Below, in pieces: positions 44,049-55,076 of a stretch of 64,000 nucleotides of DNA. The notes beneath the pieces are model-generated. The model had not been told where the DNA came from. It was given only the letters and a program-made list of their open reading frames with translations, and did not search any database. Each line of letters opens with the position of its first letter. Position 1 is the first letter of the stretch. Source of the stretch: Bacteroidota bacterium (lineage in GTDB: Bacteria; Bacteroidota; Bacteroidia; Chitinophagales; Chitinophagaceae). The DNA lies in the NCBI GenBank assembly GCA_018267955.1, contig JAFDXL010000009.1:1018717-1082716 (forward strand), given 5' to 3'. A program made the translations under genes and the position numbers.

Positions 44049-45572
44049 TTAAAAGTCGAATTGTAACGATTTGGAGGGAGTATTTTGAAAAGTGGTACGG
44101 TTGGGAATCTTTATAATAAACGTTGTTCCTACACCTAACTCACTTGTAAAATTAATTGTACCGTTTAGTAATTCTACGTAACGCTGCACAATATTTAACC
44201 CAAGGCCGGTACCTCTAATATTACCTACGTTAGATGCCCTGAAATATTTATTGAATAGTTTTTCATGCTCGTCGTTAGGTATGCCAATGCCGTTATCTGC
44301 CACAGCTATGGTTATCCTTTTTTTGTTTACCTCGATATCCAGCTGTATATTTTTATCAGAATATTTTATGGCATTGCTTAACAAATTTGCCAGCATGTTG
44401 CGCAGTATTTTTATCTCAGACCTAATTTTCGGGTAACCCTTATAAGAAAAAATAATTTTTTGACCCGCTTTCATAATGCTTTCAAATTCATCTAATGTCT
44501 CAGCCGCCAGTTGCTGCAGGTCAAACAGCTCATTTCTCAACTCAATTACACCATCGTCCAGTTTGCCAACAGCCAAAAAATCATTCATAGTGTCTGTTAA
44601 ATGTTTTACCGCAGCCCTTATCCTGTTCAAATGCGCGTATTCATTTTCCGGTTGATTGAGTTTAATATAGCTTTCTATAAGCCCCACAGATGACAATATG
44701 GTACTTAAAGGTGTATGAAATTCATGAGATGCTAATGAAACAAACTGAGATTGGAGCTTGTTATTACGTTTTTCCTGTTCCAGTGCAGCTACCAGTTCCA
44801 ATGTTCTTTGTTTTACACGTTTTTCCATTTTCTGGTTCATCATTACCTGGTCGTGTATATCTACACAAGTACCCGTATATCCTATAAAATTACCCGGTGG
44901 GTCATACATCGGTTGGCCTGTATAAGCAACCCAACGATAGCTTCCATCATGGTGGCGTATTCTGAATTCCCTATGAATGGTTGCTCTTTTTTCAAAAGCC
45001 TCGTCAAAGGCTTCCACGAAGCTTTGCCTGTCATCCTCAAACACTGCTACCGCCCTGTTCTTACCTGTCTGTCGTTCAAAGCTAAAACCGGTAAACTGGA
45101 GAAATGCAGGGTTCAAATAGTTTGTCCGCTTGTTCGAATCGCAGCTCCACATCATTACAGGTACACAGTCTGCTATGTATTGAAACCATTTCCCCCCATC
45201 TGCAATTACTTGTTTGATCTTTTTTTTGTCTGAAATATCGTTGTAATAAATAAATATTCCTGACTGATGTGCATAAGCACGGATTTCCATCCAACTATCC
45301 AGCCTCGGTATATAAATTTCAAAATGGGAGTGTGTTCTTTGCTCCATTACCTTTCGGTACTCAGCTTCAGCTTCAGTACCGTCTATTTCAGGAAAGCATT
45401 CCCAGAGAGTATTACCAATAAGCTCTTCAGCCTTTTTACCCAGCTTTTCAATTGCTGCATCATTCAGGAACTGGAAGCGCCATTCGCTATCAAGGTAAAC
45501 AAAAGGCTCATACATACTTTGAAGTATAGCTTCAGGTGTTAGCAAGCGGTTTATATTGGTTGCGGCGTTCAT
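44049..45572 (-). CDS. PAS-domain sensor histidine kinase (soluble)
   Basis: 507 residues without membrane segments. PAS 1 (about 12-115, YEPFVYLDSEWRFQFLNDAA), PAS 2 with PAC (about 128-250, WSCDSNKRTNYLNPAFLQFTG; RHHDGSYRWVAYTGQPMYD), a coiled linker, HisKA (FVSLASHEFHTPLSTILSSV) and HATPase (LLSNAIKYSDKNIQ, DNGIGIPNDE, GTGLGLNIVQRY). It lies 44 bases after a receiver-Crp fusion gene on the same strand, so the two very likely form one signalling pair sensing a cytoplasmic cue such as redox or energy state. Confidence 0.9.
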   Translation of the reverse strand: MNAATNINRLLTPEAILQSMYEPFVYLDSEWRFQFLNDAAIEKLGKKAEELIGNTLWECFPEIDGTEAEAEYRKVMEQRTHSHFEIYIPRLDSWMEIRAYAHQSGIFIYYNDISDKKKIKQVIADGGKWFQYIADCVPVMMWSCDSNKRTNYLNPAFLQFTGFSFERQTGKNRAVAVFEDDRQSFVEAFDEAFEKRATIHREFRIRHHDGSYRWVAYTGQPMYDPPGNFIGYTGTCVDIHDQVMMNQKMEKRVKQRTLELVAALEQEKRNNKLQSQFVSLASHEFHTPLSTILSSVGLIESYIKLNQPENEYAHLNRIRAAVKHLTDTMNDFLAVGKLDDGVIELRNELFDLQQLAAETLDEFESIMKAGQKIIFSYKGYPKIRSEIKILRNMLANLLSNAIKYSDKNIQLDIEVNKKRITIAVADNGIGIPNDEHEKLFNKYFRASNVGNIRGTGLGLNIVQRYVELLNGTINFTSELGVGTTFIIKIPNRTTFQNTPSKSLQFDF

Positions 45573-45616
45573 GACCTGGTTAAAATTTGGATGTTACTAC
45601 TGCGTATCGGTTGTCA

Positions 45617-46681
45617 CTACCGTATTAATTGATTTAACCGATTCTTGTTTAGTATTGTAATATGCCCGTCCTTCATGTCGATGAGTTTTTCCTGCTTAAA
45701 TTCTGTCAATGTCCTAATGAGCGATTCCGTTGCAGTCCCTGCTATACTGGCAAGGTCGTTGCGTGTCAGGTCTATAGTAAAAGCCTCATCTTCACGGGTG
45801 TGAAATTTTTTCTCGAAGCTTGCTAAAGCCTTGGCAACTTTCTTTCTCAATGTATTGTAAGCAAAATCTAATACCTGTTGTTCTTTATCCTGTAATTCGT
45901 CGGCCATAAGCCCGATGAATTTTTTCATTACTTCTGTATGCGTATTAGCCACTTCATCAAACCTGCTTTTGGGTATAACTATCAGCTTGCAATCTTCAAT
46001 AGCTTCTGCGGTCAATAGATGAATATGTCCTTTTATCAGGGGAACATAGCCAATAAAATCTCCTTCTCCATGCAGTCCTACAATAAGATCTTTACCATCT
46101 TCATGGCTTTTATAGGTTTTAATTTTCCCTGATTTTATATAATACATATACCTGGCAGGGCTACCTTCCTTGTATATTATTTGCTTTTTATGATATTCGG
46201 TCTCATCACAATTATCTGTTAACAGGCTTATGATATCCGATTCTCTGGTGATCTTGCGGAACTCATCAGGCCTGGCAATTACCTGGGTTACCTTTGTCTC
46301 GTCTTTAGCTTTATTTGCCTGCCTGAGGCGTTGGTCTATAGCCTTTAAGAGGTCACCCGCCTCAAATGGCTTGGCTATATAGTCATCTGCACCCAAATGC
46401 ATGGCCTGCCTGTAATAAACAGCTTCTCTTTTAGAACTGAGAAATATAAACGGAATATTCCTGGCTTTGTCTTCCTTTCGTAGAATGTGTAATACACCAA
46501 AGCCGTCTATGCAAGGCATGGAGATGTCGCTCAGTATTAGGTCGTACGGCTCTCTGTGTGCTTTTTCAATACCTTCCAGGCCGTTCCTGGCTATACTTAC
46601 ATTGTGGTTGGCTAACGAAAGGATCTCGGCTACATTTGAGCACATATCTTCGTCATCCTCCATTAATAGAATGTTGGCCAT
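45617..46681 (-). CDS. Response regulator fused to a Crp/Fnr-type transcription factor
   Basis: 354 residues. A receiver domain (1-120, ILLMEDDEDM, LILSDISMPCIDG, YIAKPFEAGDL) is joined by a linker to a cyclic-nucleotide-binding-like beta-roll (about 155-265, KKQIIYKEGSPARYMYYIKS, LIVGLHGEGDFIGYVPLI) and a Crp winged helix (about 275-345, LTRNDLASIAGTATESLIRT). There is no Cys cluster for an Fe-S centre as in Fnr. The fusion places a Crp-type output under phosphorelay control. A dyad of Crp/Fnr size lies 54 bases upstream of the start. Confidence 0.88.
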   Translation of the reverse strand: MANILLMEDDEDMCSNVAEILSLANHNVSIARNGLEGIEKAHREPYDLILSDISMPCIDGFGVLHILRKEDKARNIPFIFLSSKREAVYYRQAMHLGADDYIAKPFEAGDLLKAIDQRLRQANKAKDETKVTQVIARPDEFRKITRESDIISLLTDNCDETEYHKKQIIYKEGSPARYMYYIKSGKIKTYKSHEDGKDLIVGLHGEGDFIGYVPLIKGHIHLLTAEAIEDCKLIVIPKSRFDEVANTHTEVMKKFIGLMADELQDKEQQVLDFAYNTLRKKVAKALASFEKKFHTREDEAFTIDLTRNDLASIAGTATESLIRTLTEFKQEKLIDMKDGHITILNKNRLNQLIR

Positions 46682-47198: not shown

Positions 47199-47549
47199 AT
47201 GACAGTACTTACAACATACTTCAGCCAACACTCATACGGCAAACAACACTTAAATATTTTCAGGAGAATGGCACACACCATCATCAGTGATTATTTAAGA
47301 GAGATGAAAGAATACGTAGAAGACAAAGGCTTCCCTCCCTCTTTTGAAGAAATGATGAGTGCAGCTAAAAGACTGGAAAACGATCTTTTACTAAAAGGCG
47401 ATTGGTTGAAGCTTGCCTATAAGAAGGAGAGAGGAAAAGGATCTCCCAGCTTATCAAAGGGCGTAAAAAGAATTATAAAAGGAGCGCTTAACGACTATAT
47501 AAACCGCACAAAAGCAATAACGGCAAATAAACCCAAACAAGTGTTATAG
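47199..47549 (+). CDS. Hypothetical protein (116 residues)
   Basis: Basic, mostly helical, no signal peptide, Lys-rich C-terminus. An internal Met at 24 (MAHTIISDYLREMKEYV) is an alternative start. I do not recognise the family. It opens a run of plus-strand genes leading into the chaperone/usher-like cluster but has no export signal, so it may be a cytoplasmic or regulatory partner, or unrelated. Confidence 0.6.
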   Translation: MTVLTTYFSQHSYGKQHLNIFRRMAHTIISDYLREMKEYVEDKGFPPSFEEMMSAAKRLENDLLLKGDWLKLAYKKERGKGSPSLSKGVKRIIKGALNDYINRTKAITANKPKQVL

Positions 47550-47591
47550 TACTTACCGCATATTGATTCCTTAACTATAAAAAGTACAAAA

Positions 47592-48194
47592 ATGAGCACA
47601 ACAATTAAAGCAGTGGCCGTCAACGAGAGCACCACTAATATTGAAAGGAACGCTATCCGTATCATGTTGCTGAATAATGGAGCGTGTGATCATGTAAAAA
47701 CTTTCCCGCTTGAAACGCATACTAAGAACACCTCCATATTATTGTCCGTATTAAAAGAAGAACTACCACCCTATAAAAAAAATGCCTACCTGGGTATAGG
47801 CTTCGTTTCTTATGAAAATGTCAACCTGATACAGTTCAAGTCTACTTTCAAATCATTCCCTCTAAACCGGGGTGATGAGTTCGTATTCTACTTTGAAGAC
47901 GGGCAAAAACTGGTTTTCAATATGAATTTTGAGAGCAAAAAAGAAGGCCCGTTTTTTAAAAATGAAAGCCTGATAACAGATGAGGAACTTGATCTTTTAA
48001 AAAGAACAGACCTCAAATATTACAAATTGACCAACTGCCAAAAACATATCTCGGTAATCGGTGGCTTTGTGCACCAGGAAAATAATATTCAATATAGCTC
48101 CGAGCGCACCGGTAAAAAATTATTCAAGTTAATGGCTAAGCGCATATTGCTGGCAAGGCGAAGAGTAGAGCTGGCCTGCTGTAACAATTATTAA
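47592..48194 (+). CDS. Hypothetical protein (200 residues)
   Basis: No signal peptide. Predicted mixed alpha/beta, with FYFEDGQKLVFNMNFESKKEG and a C-terminus rich in Lys and Arg (KLFKLMAKRILLARRRVELA). Not recognised. It lies 42 bases after the preceding gene and 23 before a secreted hypothetical protein, so it is probably co-transcribed with the chaperone cluster. Confidence 0.65.
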   Translation: MSTTIKAVAVNESTTNIERNAIRIMLLNNGACDHVKTFPLETHTKNTSILLSVLKEELPPYKKNAYLGIGFVSYENVNLIQFKSTFKSFPLNRGDEFVFYFEDGQKLVFNMNFESKKEGPFFKNESLITDEELDLLKRTDLKYYKLTNCQKHISVIGGFVHQENNIQYSSERTGKKLFKLMAKRILLARRRVELACCNNY

Positions 48195-48217
48195 TACCTA
48201 AACTAAATAATAGAGTT

Positions 48218-48931
48218 ATGAAAAAATTACTCCTCCTTACACTGAGTATAATAACAACGACTGTTGGCATGTGTCAAAAAGCAAATGAAACAGTTGCGAT
48301 TAATTATGTTGATAGCCTCTTTTCTCCCGGAGAACACAAGTTGGAAATACTGGAAAAAAATATCCCTGCAGATCTGAAAGAAATAATAGTGAATTATCGT
48401 AAGGCAATTGCTGATAGCCTACAGTGGTATGATGTGTATTCGCAACAACACAAAAATGAAGTACCCCTACCCTACCATGTAAACTTTGGAATTACCAAAG
48501 CTGACTACGACCGTATGAATACGGAATTCCCGACAGTAAAGATGAAAGTGAAAACTGTAAAAGGAATAACGGTTAATAAATTAAACGGCCAATTGGCATT
48601 AAAGGGTAAGGGCGACTTTACCATACTCGACGAAATAATATTTGACGTGGCTAATAAAAGCTTAATAATCGGGGATCAGCATATCCCCTATACCGGCGAA
48701 ATAAATGAAAGTGAAGGATCAGGCATCGGGGCATGGAATGGTTATGACTGGAAACTGGAGGTTGGCAGCATGGCTGATGTAAAAGCATTCAAAAGTGTTG
48801 ACTACACCATGATAGATTTAAGCATCGGCAAAACGCAGACGGAAAACAAAATCGTTCTGCAATACAAAACCATATACGTAATTGACGGAGATCCCAAAAT
48901 CAATGGCTCACTTACAGCATTTTTGAAATAA
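48218..48931 (+). CDS. Secreted hypothetical protein
   Basis: 237 residues; signal peptide 1-19 (cleavage near GMCQ). The mature protein has a helical N-terminal part (VDSLFSPGEHKLEILEKNIP) and a beta-rich C-terminal half (KVKTVKGITVNKLNGQLALK to VIDGDPKINGSLTAFLK). No known motif. It sits 23 bases upstream of the chaperone gene and is likely in the same transcript, so it may be a periplasmic accessory of that system. Confidence 0.65.
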   Translation: MKKLLLLTLSIITTTVGMCQKANETVAINYVDSLFSPGEHKLEILEKNIPADLKEIIVNYRKAIADSLQWYDVYSQQHKNEVPLPYHVNFGITKADYDRMNTEFPTVKMKVKTVKGITVNKLNGQLALKGKGDFTILDEIIFDVANKSLIIGDQHIPYTGEINESEGSGIGAWNGYDWKLEVGSMADVKAFKSVDYTMIDLSIGKTQTENKIVLQYKTIYVIDGDPKINGSLTAFLK

Positions 48932-48954
48932 CCGTACAACAAAAAACGTATTTT

Positions 48955-49779
48955 ATGTCTGGAATCAGAATTAGAAATATTTCATTATTCGTAGCTATTA
49001 TTACATGCCTGTCATTTACCGCTCATGCCCAAAAAAGTGCTATTTCTATTGGCCCTGCAACGCTATACTTTACTGTAGACAAAGGACAGACTGCTACACA
49101 AACAGTATATATCACCAACAAACTCAGCAAACCATACAGTTTCAGTATTGAGGTTATTGACTGGACGCTTGACTCTAACGGCGATGACCGTTTTTATGAA
49201 CCCAAAACCGTACAAAACTCCTGCGCCGAATGGATAACGCTGGACAAAACATTCGTTGAGATACCGGCTAACTCCAAGGAAGGTATCAACGTAACATTAC
49301 ATGTGCCAGACTCTGCAGATGCTGTAAAAGAAATCAAATGGACGATGTTGCATATTGGTACTAAAGGAGAGAAAAAGGCTCCCAAAAAAACAGGTGAGCT
49401 TGAGTTAGAGCTAACGAAAAGCCTGGCCGTAGGTGTGCGAGTATACCAGGTGCCCCCGGCAAATGTATCGCTTACAAAAAAAATAAAAATGAGATCGTTT
49501 ACAATGCTGCAGGATAGTGCCACCTATAGGATTGATGGCGAAAATACCGGTGATATGATGCTGCGATGCCAATATTCCATTGAGCTGTCTTCAGAAACCG
49601 GTGATAAAATTACTGTTGGCCCTAAACAGGCATTGATGTTGCCGGGCCAAAAAAGATATATCGATCTGCAAATACCCAAAACATTGCCCAAAGGTAAGTA
49701 CATAGCCACTGCGCTTATTGAACCGGGAGATGATGATGTGCCTTTGGAAGCATCAGAAATGACAATTGAAGTAAAATAA
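48955..49779 (+). CDS. PapD-like periplasmic chaperone
   Basis: 274 residues; signal peptide 1-25 (cleavage after AHA). The N-terminal Ig-like domain (about 28-135) has the pilus-chaperone pattern ISIGPATLYFTVDKGQTATQ, VYITNKLSKPYSFSIEV and FVEIPANSKEGINVTLHV, then a second beta-sandwich (about 165-272, QALMLPGQKRYIDLQIP). Pilus chaperones hold subunits in the periplasm by donor-strand complementation. It is followed 2 bases later by the first small subunit gene. Similarity is at the pattern level; a WxL-interacting-like or other Ig fold is an alternative. Confidence 0.6.
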   Translation: MSGIRIRNISLFVAIITCLSFTAHAQKSAISIGPATLYFTVDKGQTATQTVYITNKLSKPYSFSIEVIDWTLDSNGDDRFYEPKTVQNSCAEWITLDKTFVEIPANSKEGINVTLHVPDSADAVKEIKWTMLHIGTKGEKKAPKKTGELELELTKSLAVGVRVYQVPPANVSLTKKIKMRSFTMLQDSATYRIDGENTGDMMLRCQYSIELSSETGDKITVGPKQALMLPGQKRYIDLQIPKTLPKGKYIATALIEPGDDDVPLEASEMTIEVK

Positions 49780-49781
49780 GT

Positions 49782-50261
49782 ATGAAACAAAAAATGCGTC
49801 AGCTGTTTTTGGTTGCCTTGATTTTGATCCCGGCTTTGTCGAGGGCACAGGCAGACGCAGATAATAGTTTTCACATAACATTGAATACACCTTTGATTAC
49901 CAGCTATTCAAATATAGATGAGGTATTGGCGCCCAGGGTGCTTCAAAATGCCATTGAATTAACGCTAACTCAAAAGGGATACACCAGGAATATTATGGCA
50001 AGCATTAACTACACGGGCATATCACAAACAGATATTGCGCCGAATTGGATATCCTTAAAACTGAGGAGCGTTAACTCCTCGAATGTTATTATATATCAGC
50101 CTCAGGTAAATTTATCGCTGTCACCAATCTTGCTTTCTACCCTGCCAGCTTCCTCCGGCAACGAAAATATCATCCTGGTATATGACCTCGTAATTAACCC
50201 GTCAAATATATTCCTGTTCACAGGCAATATCAACTATTCTATTGCATTTTCAATTCAATGA
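49782..50261 (+). CDS. Small exported subunit-like protein 1
   Basis: 159 residues; signal peptide 1-22 (cleavage after SRA). The mature part is all beta, with SFHITLNTPLITSYSNIDE, RNIMASINYTGIS and a C-terminal strand GNINYSIAFSIQ. The layout (N-terminal beta-strand, central F/Y...G turn, end strand G.Y.(Y/G).I.F) matches the two other small proteins in the cluster. It starts 2 bases after the chaperone gene and overlaps the next by 4 bases. Likely a minor subunit or adaptor of a surface fibre (inference). Confidence 0.55.
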   Translation: MKQKMRQLFLVALILIPALSRAQADADNSFHITLNTPLITSYSNIDEVLAPRVLQNAIELTLTQKGYTRNIMASINYTGISQTDIAPNWISLKLRSVNSSNVIIYQPQVNLSLSPILLSTLPASSGNENIILVYDLVINPSNIFLFTGNINYSIAFSIQ

Positions 50262-50761
50262 TCATGAAGAAGTTTACATTAGTTATGTTGTTGTTCCCTT
50301 TATATTCATCGGCACAACCCTTTCCGGGGCATCAAACCACAGTATCAATTCAGGGTACCATACAAATGCCATCGATGGTAAGTATAAATGTAATCTCTGC
50401 AATTCAATCCATATCAATAAACAGTTTTGAAGAAATCACTTCAGGAAAAATCTATCCATCTTTTTTTCAGCTTCATGTAAAAAGCAACAAAGCATGGACT
50501 GTCAGTGCAATGACCAGTGCACAGCATCTATCTTCCATTACAACTGCCGGCACGCAAAAGATCCCGGCCAATATCCTTAGTTTAAAGGCAGAACCAGGCA
50601 ATGATTTTGTTCATTTGTCAAATCAACCGGTCGCACTTTTCCATAACGTCAATAATCAAATCGACAATACTTACAAAGTAGATTTAAAAATAGATGGCCT
50701 GCTCAATTACTACGGCGGCGAGTATACCTACAATATAATATTTATCGTCTCGGCGCGCTAA
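50258..50761 (+). CDS. Small exported subunit-like protein 2
   Basis: 167 residues; signal peptide 1-20. All-beta mature part with VSIQGTIQMPSMVSINVISA, ISINSFEEITSGKIYP, FFQLHVKSNKAWTVSAMTSA and last strand GEYTYNIIFIVSAR. This resembles DUF4402-type and spore-coat-U-like subunits (x-L-x-V-x-S-N-x-x-W-x-V motif). Overlaps the previous gene by 4 bases (ATGA). A long 827-base gap follows before the third subunit. Confidence 0.58.
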   Translation: MIMKKFTLVMLLFPLYSSAQPFPGHQTTVSIQGTIQMPSMVSINVISAIQSISINSFEEITSGKIYPSFFQLHVKSNKAWTVSAMTSAQHLSSITTAGTQKIPANILSLKAEPGNDFVHLSNQPVALFHNVNNQIDNTYKVDLKIDGLLNYYGGEYTYNIIFIVSAR

Positions 50762-51588
50762 GAGCTGCTACAAAAAAAGACTACGCAAAGTCTAACCTGG
50801 AATATAACCGGCCATAAATATTACCGGGGCTAAGTAAACAACACTGTTTATTTTGCTCCGTTTTAAATTTTAAGCCCTTCCTGGCAATGTTTTAATTTAA
50901 AACAATAGCTTTGTTTTCAAATTGAACACATCTATCAGCCATTTTTTCACCTAAAAATCATATCAATTTAACACCAGGTGAAGGCTATATTGCCATTCAC
51001 ATTTTTCAGGTAAAAGCTACATGCTTTTCGGTGAGCAATTTATTTTGTGGATTTCCTGTTACATCCGGTGCATAACTCCATTGGAATATTTCAATTCATA
51101 CAAATTTACCCGAATTGGAAATACCATTTATACAAGACACCATTTGAGCGTTTAGTTTCATGCCGCTAAAACATGCTATAGACAATGCTTTCAGCCGACC
51201 TAGAAGGACATAAGGAGCTGGGTACCGTAATATTATTAGCCCTGCCAAAAATGGACATACTGATGTTGATAAAGAACGTTCTGCGTTTTGCAAAAGTTCA
51301 TTAATGCGTGTTTTTAAATCAGGAAAAGCGCCTCTTTTTTATTTAAACATCCTTCGAATAAATCCCCTGAAACCCTATCCCGTATTGTGTCCTATGTAAA
51401 TAGACATTTCTTATCGGAAGAATAATAAATGAACAGAAGCACCATTCAACGATGTTTCTTTTAATCGTTACTAATTTGTTTATAACTGCAGTAAACTACC
51501 GTCTTGTTTTGATGGAAGTTTGTGTCATCAAGGCTTTGAAACACAAATTTTAAACAACATTAAAAAACAAAATTAAAAATTGCCAATT
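50762..51588 (+). other. Long non-coding leader of the major subunit gene
   Basis: No convincing gene on either strand. The DNA is AT-rich. Near the 3' end, 51509-51547 can form an H-type pseudoknot: TTGATG (51509-51514) pairs with CATCAA (51526-51531), and TTTGTGT (51519-51525) with ACACAAA (51541-51547). The order a-b-a'-b' gives loops of 4, 0 and 9 bases. This lies 41 bases before the start codon at 51589 and suggests an independently controlled transcript. Confidence 0.4.
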
Positions 51589-52179
51589 ATGAAAAAGCTA
51601 ACATTAACAGCTGCTATTCTATTTGCAGCTATCAGTATGGTAAAAGCTCAAGCAAATGCTAACAGTGAAGTTCCCGGAACAGTGGATAATACCACATTAG
51701 TAGGATCATTGGGTATCACAGATATGATTGACCTCGTACCTGAATACCAGGTTGCAGGTAATAACGCCGACACATGGAGCGAATTCGAAAATGGCCTTAA
51801 CTTCCTGGAAGCATGGCCAAACACACCGGTAGGTGGTAACGATATCGAGTTCCGTATCTCAGCAACTCGTCACTTCCATGCAAGTGTAAAAGGTGCAACT
51901 TTCACAAGAATAGGTGGCGGCGATCCCGGTTTGCCAGCAAGCAGCTTCAAATGGTTAGTGTACAGCTATAGCACAATTCCTGGTGGCGCTGCAGAAAACG
52001 GCTTCGGTACAGGCAATGGCGCAGCACTGTCTACTTCTGCCCAAAACTTCCTGCAAGGTGACGGCTGCTACAACAAACTGTTTATTACCCGTCTTTCTTT
52101 GAACCCAGGTGCTGCTTATGGCCATCTTGGAGGTACCTATCAAGGCAACATTATGGTTACCGGTACATTAGCTCCATAA
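51589..52179 (+). CDS. Putative major surface subunit
   Basis: 196 residues from ATG at 51589 (MKKLTLTAAILFAAISMVKA is the signal peptide); the frame opens at a TTG three codons earlier. The mature protein has LVGSLGITDMIDLVPEYQV, FENGLNFLEAWPN, IEFRISATRHFHASVKGATF and an end strand GTYQGNIMVTGTLAP. It is Gly, Ala and Asn rich and has just one Cys. Pattern matches the other small proteins and the pseudogene at 7449. Its own leader and strong terminator suggest high expression, as for a major fibre subunit. Function is inferred, not recognised. Confidence 0.6.
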   Translation: MKKLTLTAAILFAAISMVKAQANANSEVPGTVDNTTLVGSLGITDMIDLVPEYQVAGNNADTWSEFENGLNFLEAWPNTPVGGNDIEFRISATRHFHASVKGATFTRIGGGDPGLPASSFKWLVYSYSTIPGGAAENGFGTGNGAALSTSAQNFLQGDGCYNKLFITRLSLNPGAAYGHLGGTYQGNIMVTGTLAP

Positions 52180-52218
52180 TACACAACTATAGCTGTAGCT
52201 AATAGCTGATGATAATGT

Positions 52219-52253
52219 TAAACCCTTCCCCGTAAGGAAGGGTTTACTTTTTT
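52219..52253 (+). terminator. Strong terminator between subunit and usher-like genes
   Basis: TAAACCCTTCC, loop CCGTAA, GGAAGGGTTTA, then CTTTTTT. Perfect 11-bp stem with U-tract on the plus strand. It ends the subunit transcript 22 bases before the usher-like gene, so the large gene is made by read-through or from a promoter inside this short gap. Confidence 0.88.
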
Positions 52254-52274
52254 AAAAATGTACATTTTTTAGTA

Positions 52275-55076
52275 ATGATATCATTTTTGAAACATATCAA
52301 ATTCACTACTTCTATTTTGTTTTGCATCTTATTCATAAGTGCAGAAGCAGCCGATGTGGATCATTGTAAATTTTTTGAGGTTCATTATAAAGATTCATTA
52401 GTAGCTAAAAATGAGACCAACATCCTTTATAATACTATCAAAATAAACAACCCCAACCGCAAGTTCATCAGGCTGGGAATTACTGTTAAGATTCCGTCGG
52501 GCTGGAAACTTTTATCCAAAGATTCTCTTTTATCCGGCAGAGAAATATTCTGCACCCTTCAACCCAACAGCACCAGGAGTATTCCTTTAAATTTATTAAA
52601 ACTTCCAAAAACACGGGCGTCCTGGGATAGCATTAAAATATCAGTCCGCGTACCAGACGTTACCGACCAGCATGTTTATTATTATCACCTAAAACCAGAA
52701 GCTGATCCTAAGTTTACAGCCGAGTATATTACTGAAGACCTTTTATTTAGTGAGCGCCCAGACTCTGTGCAATTAAGCGTTCATTTAAAAAACACGGGCA
52801 ATATCAATGATACATACACATTGCAATGGCAGAATCAAAATCTGCTCGTAAACGACAAGAATATTATAAAGCTTGATCCGGGCAGGGATACTATTTATAA
52901 CTGGGCATTGAAATTATCTGCTTCGCAATGGCAAAACATCTGTCATGAAAATATTGCCTTATGCGTTAAGGGCAGTGGTATGAACTCTTACACCCACTTG
53001 TATAAATTAAGCAGGCCCAGGCACAATATCAAAGAGAACCCATCGCCTTATTCATTAATACCTCTTACTATAGAAGGCGGAATGATCAATCAAAATAACC
53101 GGCTTAACTATTATGGCGCTGCGAGAGGTGATATCCACTTTGGCAATAGAAATGATCTGAGATTTTATTATAAAAGCAAACAATTTGGTACCGAAGTTTA
53201 CGGCATCCAGCAAAACATGTATCTCGTGGATTATATATACCACGACTGGAAATTCTCCGCAGGTACGATACAACCTATACAACGCTATTTTCTAAGTAAC
53301 GGACGTGGATTTGGCATTAGCCACAATTTCAATCACAACGTCGAGGTGGCTGTTACAGCAAATCTCAGGGATCGCAATTTCTATTATTCAAGCAATAACT
53401 TCTCCACACAGGTAAGGTACCAACTGGGAAAAATAGGATGTACGAATATTATAAGCACCAATTTCGATGACCAAAACCATCTAAATGGCTATGTATTATC
53501 TGGTAACGCACAATTATTAAATACCCAAAAAGTAGTCCTGTCTATCCAGGCAGGAACCGGCCTATCTCAAAAAACAAAGGATGTGGAAGGGGTTAAAAAA
53601 CAAACATGGGGCTTAACCGGTGGTTATAAGTTTTCATTCCGGCAGTATAATAATTGGACGATTAATTCGAGTGTAGAATACTATGACAAGAATTTTCCCG
53701 GCATCAATAATGGCATGATGGTTCAGATGCACCAGATAGCTCGCGAATTCAATAAGAAATTCGCGGGCATATTTTATTCTTCAAGTTTTTTAAATACCAG
53801 GTACTATACGGATACGCTGTATAACACAGATATGCTGAAGTACAATAGTGAGCGGTTTGGTGTAAACGCAGGTTTAAAAGACACGCGGAACAGTCTTATG
53901 ATTTCTACAGGTTTGCTAAATGAAGGCGGAATAGGCAGCCAAACAGACCTCAACAATATGGCATTCTTTGACGTGAATTATTCTTACCAGAAGGATAAAA
54001 AGATTTCGGTGTTGTTAAATTCTCAGAATGCTTTTAAAAATAACGTCGGTAGTAATCATGCAAGCGTATTTGTTACTAGTACCATGGCTTCAATTAATGT
54101 TGGCTGGCCCGGTGTAATGGCAACATATACCCGTAAACCGGTTTTAAGTTATGATGGCCCGGCCCAAAATGTAAAGAGTTATGATGTTACGTTGTGCGGA
54201 GGGCCTTTCATGAAATTCAATTTCTTCAAAAGTAGGCTAAGTGGCATGGTGAAGTTCCAGGTTTCCAAATCTGTTTATGATCAGATTGTAAGATCGTCTG
54301 TGGTTGGCAGCGTTAATTATTTGAATGATAAAATTGGAACTTCGATACAGCTCTCCGGAAATATTCCCACAAGTAACATCCTGACCAATGGCCACCAATT
54401 GCCGATTACAGAAGAGAAATTTCTGACATTATCTATATCCAAACAACTCAACGTACCGGTTATTACCAAGAGAAAATTGTATACGATGACTCTGGTATTG
54501 TTTAATGACCATAACAATAACGGCTTGCTGGATGCAAAAGAAGAATTATTGAAAGATGTACAAATATTGGTCAACGGGAATGAAATTCTGCTAACCGATA
54601 AAAAAGGGGAAGCCCGGTACATGAATATTACAAAGGGCAATTATGCTATCGAGCTAAATACGATTCAATCCAAAGGACTGGTACCGGTAAATGGAATACT
54701 TCAATCTGTTTCCTTACAAAAGAACACTACGATAGCTATACCGTACAAAAAAGGCACCGTTGTTTCAGGTAAAATCAGGATAATCCGGGATTCCTATAGT
54801 AAAACCAAGTTTACTGCAGACGGAATAAAAGTGATCGCAGTCGATACGTCCGGAAAGATTTACAGTACAGTAACAGATCTGGCAGGAGACTATTCATTTA
54901 GTTTGCCGGCTGGTATTTATACGATCGCATTAAATCCACAGGCTTTTGAAGGCAGTGATTTCATTCCGGATAAGCTGTCTTACAAAATTGATTTATTTAA
55001 AAACAATGAAGATAAAACCGGTTTTACGATCACGCAAAAGCCACGTAAAGTAGAATTTCTAAAACGGATTAAATAG
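52275..55076 (+). CDS. Large outer-membrane protein, usher-like
   Basis: 933 residues; signal peptide about 1-25 (cleavage after AEA). Two N-terminal Ig-like domains (about 30-145, TIKINNPNRKFIRLGITVKI; and 150-250, VQLSVHLKNTGNINDTYTLQ) precede a long stretch of amphipathic strands (about 262-730, many Asn/Tyr turns) that looks like a large beta-barrel. At the C-terminus are an SdrD-like domain (about 736-815, LVLFNDHNNNGLLDAKEELL) and a carboxypeptidase-like domain (about 818-915). Domain order (periplasmic N-domain, barrel, two C-terminal beta-sandwiches) parallels pilus ushers, and the gene follows a PapD-like chaperone and subunits. No usher signature could be confirmed by eye. An unrelated export barrel is possible. 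Confidence 0.5.
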   Translation: MISFLKHIKFTTSILFCILFISAEAADVDHCKFFEVHYKDSLVAKNETNILYNTIKINNPNRKFIRLGITVKIPSGWKLLSKDSLLSGREIFCTLQPNSTRSIPLNLLKLPKTRASWDSIKISVRVPDVTDQHVYYYHLKPEADPKFTAEYITEDLLFSERPDSVQLSVHLKNTGNINDTYTLQWQNQNLLVNDKNIIKLDPGRDTIYNWALKLSASQWQNICHENIALCVKGSGMNSYTHLYKLSRPRHNIKENPSPYSLIPLTIEGGMINQNNRLNYYGAARGDIHFGNRNDLRFYYKSKQFGTEVYGIQQNMYLVDYIYHDWKFSAGTIQPIQRYFLSNGRGFGISHNFNHNVEVAVTANLRDRNFYYSSNNFSTQVRYQLGKIGCTNIISTNFDDQNHLNGYVLSGNAQLLNTQKVVLSIQAGTGLSQKTKDVEGVKKQTWGLTGGYKFSFRQYNNWTINSSVEYYDKNFPGINNGMMVQMHQIAREFNKKFAGIFYSSSFLNTRYYTDTLYNTDMLKYNSERFGVNAGLKDTRNSLMISTGLLNEGGIGSQTDLNNMAFFDVNYSYQKDKKISVLLNSQNAFKNNVGSNHASVFVTSTMASINVGWPGVMATYTRKPVLSYDGPAQNVKSYDVTLCGGPFMKFNFFKSRLSGMVKFQVSKSVYDQIVRSSVVGSVNYLNDKIGTSIQLSGNIPTSNILTNGHQLPITEEKFLTLSISKQLNVPVITKRKLYTMTLVLFNDHNNNGLLDAKEELLKDVQILVNGNEILLTDKKGEARYMNITKGNYAIELNTIQSKGLVPVNGILQSVSLQKNTTIAIPYKKGTVVSGKIRIIRDSYSKTKFTADGIKVIAVDTSGKIYSTVTDLAGDYSFSLPAGIYTIALNPQAFEGSDFIPDKLSYKIDLFKNNEDKTGFTITQKPRKVEFLKRIK

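Follow-up and report, generated by a model that had tools for sequence, protein, structure and literature searches.

Pili of the chaperone-usher type have been described mainly in Proteobacteria. Within the Bacteroidota, the fimbriae of P. gingivalis have been noted as being without any known chaperone or usher (PMC5789003). In Firmicutes, WxL gene clusters comprise a small WxL protein, a large protein with a C-terminal WxL domain, and a WxLIP, for which a permanent partnership at the cell surface has been proposed and whose hairpin strand, according to a prediction, completes the WxL sandwich by inserting into it (PMC10599100). Such an insertion would be strand donation in all but name.

Here, we analyzed a locus within a 64,000-nucleotide stretch of DNA from the Chitinophagaceae (“the window”), which an earlier note, made from the sequence alone, had read as a divergent chaperone-usher-like fibre system. 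Chaperone homology, filament homology, pilin-type termini, tip-like subunits, and fixed gene adjacency all speak for that reading. A literature search, with most subscription journals outside its scope, found no description of this system, and we regard its novelty as provisional.

Gene organization of the locus

All genes were found where the earlier note had placed them, and the gene set it listed was recovered in full. The single run it described was not: the genes form two blocks, 47199-50761 (116, 200, 237, 274, 159, and 167 aa) and 51589-55076 (196 and 933 aa), and the 827 bp between them, ahead of the 196-aa gene, are non-coding and hold no long ORF (Table 1). In the first block, the 159-aa and 167-aa subunit genes overlap by 4 bases. 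The three proteins in front that had been called unrecognised are there (116, 200, and 237 aa), with the qualification that no counterpart of the 237-aa protein was seen beyond the nearest relative. The 116-aa protein, in contrast, occurs at several related loci: it also stands beside barrel and chaperone genes in the Chitinophagaceae-level loci L027 and L028, and shorter, more distant forms are found in L029 and L030.

Table 1 Features of the locus, in positions of the window.
Feature	Position	Strand	Remark
116-aa cytoplasmic-type protein	47199..47549	+	relatives found; LexA-type match sub-threshold
200-aa protein	47592..48194	+	homolog in second copy, same genome, E 7e-41
237-aa exported protein	48218..48931	+	seen only here and in nearest relative L026
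PapD-like/WxLIP-like two-domain putative periplasmic chaperone, 274 aa, signal peptide	48955..49779	+	FimC and WxLIP profile matches
159-aa subunit without extra N-terminal strand, candidate tip/initiator	49782..50261	+	
167-aa pilin-like subunit, N-terminal strand and Gly at -14	50258..50761	+	family matches TLP-1/TLP-2 in PDB
827-bp non-coding gap, presumed regulatory region of second block	50762..51588	.	79.5% identity to relative
196-aa subunit, candidate major pilin	51589..52179	+	99% protein identity to relative; codon optimisation
933-aa usher-like putative outer-membrane protein with signal peptide	52275..55076	+	domains and strand scan

Pfam and NCBIfam named almost nothing among the window proteins, the matches being weak WxLIP-type Ig domains in the 274-aa chaperone and, in the C-terminal part of the 933-aa protein, an SdrD_B and a CarboxypepD_reg domain. 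Type IX secretion substrates were rejected as a candidate, no C-terminal T9SS sorting domain match being found in the window proteins. Upstream of the cluster, 44049-46681 encodes a histidine kinase of divergent sequence with PAS, together with a regulator of the receiver/CRP type; apparent NarL-type regulators adjoin the cluster in several of the related loci L059-L064.

A chaperone homologous to both FimC and WxLIP

A profile of 25 chaperone relatives was compared with twelve proteobacterial chaperones, mostly from E. coli K-12 and with archaic chaperones not among them. The family matched these FimC-type chaperones at full length (hhalign 97.0%, score 76.7, 228 columns), while shuffled and reversed controls scored at most 18.3. 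Against six WxLIPs, the same family reached 97.8% and a score of 94.5; a profile search of the PDB returned EfmWxLIP1 over nearly the full length (E 2.7e-6), and both Ig domains of the chaperone are homologous to WxLIP (DUF916-DUF3324). Compared with each other, FimC-type chaperones and WxLIP gave 20.0 vs 19.5, i.e., background and no match. Since both are matched by the chaperone family but not by each other, this family bridges FimC and WxLIP. Its hairpin strand, LRVGIHIYQTPP in the family form, coincides in the alignment with FimC's G1 donor strand, and the window chaperone carries a putative donor strand, AVGVRVYQVPP, at the F1-G1 position.

That the chaperone family lies closer to WxLIP (94.5, and EfmWxLIP1 in the PDB) than to FimC (76.7) could point to a surface display like that of WxL, in which the PapD-like protein would be the permanent surface partner of the small proteins, no fibre would form, and the barrel would serve for export only. 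The gene content indeed parallels that of WxL clusters (PMC10599100), and there is a likeness between the C-terminal strand of the subunits and the strand of the WxL motif (88%, 18 columns). However, the translations inspected held no recognisable transmembrane helix or LPXTG partner, the 274-aa chaperone itself ending after its second Ig domain with no transmembrane helix recognised, and a WxL Pfam match was found in 0 of 34 subunits. The subunits also match filament proteins, have N-terminal strands, and occur in tandem near-identical copies (see below), and overall we consider such a display improbable. A record labelled as a Klebsiella pneumoniae plasmid (CP069367.1, 101782-102450) carries a WxLIP gene that shares 73% identity with the enterococcal query; it is probably a mixed assembly.

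Subunits with pilin-type termini

Profile matches place the three small exported proteins in one superfamily, in agreement with the shared motif layout noted earlier: a deep subunit profile matched the 167-aa protein, itself a profile member, at 1.7e-40 and the 196-aa protein at 6.4e-9, and the 159-aa family profile matched the 167-aa protein at 3.5e-11. Glycine stands at position -14 in 37 of 46 distinct subunit tails and tyrosine at -12 in 42 of 46; glycine at -14 is also a mark of classical pilins. The C-terminal strand scored 28.0 against the FimA tail (controls ≤13.8), with the match of the subunits to classical pilins restricted to the last 32 residues.

At the N-terminus, 32–48 residues separate the signal-peptide cut from the first conserved motif in most subunits and 19–27 in a minority, giving two classes about 15 residues apart whose difference amounts to one strand of alternating pattern. 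The near-identical counterpart of the 159-aa protein in L026 has 26 residues in this stretch (the window's own protein aligned too weakly), and the L027 member of the 159-aa class, which has a long leader, is an exception to the length rule. Most loci with the full gene set hold one subunit of the short kind or a multi-domain protein of 339–514 aa; these larger proteins, found in 11 related loci, contain several subunit-like domains, of which the C-terminal one is the strongest. No multi-domain tip-like protein is present in the window, where the strand-less 159-aa subunit stands instead. Judging from these lengths and domains, one short-type or multi-domain subunit together with the others appears to be what a fibre with tip and shaft would need, and by sequence pattern the N-terminal strand and the glycine at -14 make the subunits look like donor-strand pilins.

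Codon adaptation sets the 196-aa gene apart, with a CAI of 0.615 vs 0.41–0.55 (maximum 0.551) for 20 other window genes and 0.64–0.80 for ribosomal genes. Its counterpart in a second copy of the locus reached 0.707, and because codon adaptation is high in both, the 196-aa subunit is the likely shaft protein. A structure model of the 167-aa subunit had a pLDDT of 36, too low for use, from an alignment with the window and L026 as its only rows. Among related loci, several of L059-L064 (Flavobacteriales-like) contain 3–5 tandem near-identical genes for 180-aa subunits, which suggests dosage or antigenic variation, and L039 (7305-7613) encodes a 102-aa subunit with an apparent mid-protein truncation, possibly a decaying copy.

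Type V (FimA/Mfa1) fimbriae come from the same phylum and donor-strand polymerisation has been proposed there too (PMC5789003), so that the locus might be read as a variant of them. Against this, no fimbrillin Pfam match was found in the window proteins or in the subunits of relatives, and type V fimbriae were rejected as a candidate on that ground. The signal peptides of the subunits are moreover type I-like and end in AQ, not of the lipoprotein kind, and no chaperone or usher has been described for type V systems (PMC5789003). We give this variant next to no credence.

Homology to filaments of known structure

When a profile of 34 subunit relatives was searched against the PDB, exactly two sequences were returned at E ~4e-8, namely TLP-1 and TLP-2 (9ikj and 9ikk, with 16 chains in each); an earlier profile of 16 relatives had reached an E of 0.05 only. 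The match stood at 3e-7 without the nearest member and at ~1e-6 with six loci dropped. In the reverse direction, a TLP-2 stretch searched in 395 Bacteroidota genomes found a single one (1/395), with two neighbouring subunit genes of L056 that adjoin chaperone and barrel genes. The homology between TLP-1/TLP-2 and the subunits covers the first half with its N-terminal strand, and a G.YTLNV C-terminal strand matches as well, but the TLP proteins are ~237 aa long with a longer middle. We take TLP to stand for Tsinghua Lotus Pond (CryoSeek), and the cryo-EM structures are presumably of pond-water filaments. These searches indicate that the subunits are related to the TLP filament proteins.

A putative barrel protein without detected usher homology

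The domain layout foreseen for the 933-aa protein was recovered: two Ig-like N-domains (about residues 25–250), a strand-rich middle (about 250–735) with about 25 amphipathic strands in a crude scan that gives 19–23 for an usher set, and two C-terminal beta-sandwiches, SdrD_B-like and CarboxypepD_reg-like. In the same crude scan, no plug-sized gap was seen among the predicted barrel strands, and the Ig-like N-domains differ from the usher N-terminal domain. The usher family PF00577 had no match in the window proteins or in their own genome, and the 25 families shown for 17 relatives did not include it. A weak match of the barrel family to a FimD profile covered the C-terminal domains only and was given no weight because it changed between runs.

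Of the two families that had been put forward for profile comparison, PapD gave a match (97.0%, 228 columns) and the usher did not (PF00577 absent, no stable match). The accompanying remark that a clear classical usher signature is missing still stands, with PF00577 absent and no match surviving repetition. Classical usher membership was rejected for the absence of PF00577, and by the tests made the system appears not to be a member of the usher family; the barrel may be an usher so divergent that it is no longer recognisable, or else a separate invention. A structure model of the barrel had a pLDDT of 28, likewise too low for use, again from window and L026 rows only. The window protein and its homologs share a conserved basic C-terminal tail, F.IKQK.R.INIKK (residues 916–933, window positions 55021-55073).

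Recurrence across the Bacteroidota

A diverged second full copy of the locus lies elsewhere in the same genome (barrel identity 35%). Outside the window, this genome also has a third chaperone/subunit locus, G000:C10:1117230-1119749 (L086 7230-9749), with no recognised barrel; an M16 peptidase gene lies directly 3' of its subunits. In Bacteroidetes bacterium 43-93, the nearest named relative, the block is kept in the same order at 86–99% protein identity. The conservation in 43-93, the second copy, and the recurrence of the set across the phylum indicate that the locus is not a product of chance.

When 149 genomes from its own family were searched with the window barrel, 18 proved to hold relatives. 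A barrel profile built from relatives was applied to 395 phylum-wide genomes and recovered 18 full-length barrel genes, all of which (18/18) have a chaperone-family gene within 4 kb. Weaker barrel matches in at least 17 further genomes of this sample also adjoin chaperone matches, and the chaperone family is present in 80 of the 395. The set of subunits, chaperone, and barrel is kept at loci from distant families. The earlier note had proposed a check of gene order in other Chitinophagales; the gene set itself recurs across the phylum, and the proposed fibre system is not confined to Chitinophagales. PF00577 was found in 0 of 148 Bacteroidota genomes (E. coli control positive). No homologs were found on viral contigs in three scans, plasmids gave no match for the window barrel or for one chaperone homolog, and PADLOC gave no match.

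In the family from which the window comes, several barrels also occur as orphans, with no chaperone gene nearby (L030, L033, L035, and L037). Together with the missing usher signature and plug, these orphans would suit a barrel that exports soluble or surface-attached adhesins, with small proteins that fold completely alone. This would leave unexplained both the 18/18 linkage to a PapD-homologous chaperone and the filament homology, and we judge it very improbable.

A proposed assembly mechanism and its implications

Based on the FimC homology, the homology of subunits to filament proteins, their termini, the tip-like relatives, and the barrel–chaperone gene linkage, we consider it highly probable that this is the locus of a donor-strand pilus system of chaperone-usher-like kind, which works like a chaperone-usher system. 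The sequence comparisons support the chaperone homology, the relatedness and termini of the subunits, the homology to filament proteins, and the gene linkage; strand donation, docking, translocation through the barrel, subunit order, and adhesion as function are what we infer from them. Specifically, the small Ig-like subunits would be exported by the Sec machinery, and the 274-aa chaperone would cap each one at its C-terminal edge with a strand on loan, the G1-like strand in the first domain of the chaperone. The complex would dock on the 933-aa barrel via periplasmic N- and C-terminal domains, where the next subunit would put its own N-terminal strand in place of the chaperone strand, so that the fibre would grow outward. 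The 159-aa subunit, which has no such strand, would form the tip with which the fibre begins, and most of the shaft would consist of the 196-aa subunit.

We also lean, by a narrow measure, toward a wider interpretation: a phylum-wide pilus system whose chaperone links PapD and WxLIP and would imply that monoderms and diderms have in common a single ancient pair of subunit and chaperone working by strand donation, with TLP filaments as its products from aquatic Bacteroidota and a barrel that is an usher beyond recognition or an independent invention. If this were true, a pilus system, or at least its chaperone, would have been overlooked in about a fifth of the sampled genomes of the phylum, the TLP filaments would gain a source as well as a machinery for their assembly, and one old family would have PapD and WxLIP as its branches.

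Comparison with known systems

Type V (FimA/Mfa1) fimbriae resemble the proposed system as Bacteroidota fibres whose polymerisation is thought to proceed by strand donation, but differ in their unrelated subunits, the lipoprotein route, and the lack of a described chaperone or usher. WxL/WxLIP clusters of Firmicutes share a chaperone homologous over both domains, small and large subunit-bearing proteins, and a similar C-terminal strand; unlike them, the window system has a predicted outer-membrane barrel, and no WxL Pfam match, transmembrane helix, or LPXTG protein was recognised in it. From the chaperone-usher pathway of type 1 pili (FimC/FimD/FimA), the locus differs in a barrel that is not PF00577-homologous and has Ig-like N-domains in place of an usher NTD, with no plug detected, and in subunits that match pilins at the C-terminus only. 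It shares with that pathway a PapD-homologous two-domain chaperone, adjacent genes, small exported subunits with an N-terminal strand and glycine at -14, a multi-domain tip-like subunit in relatives, and a predicted outer-membrane barrel with domains at both ends.
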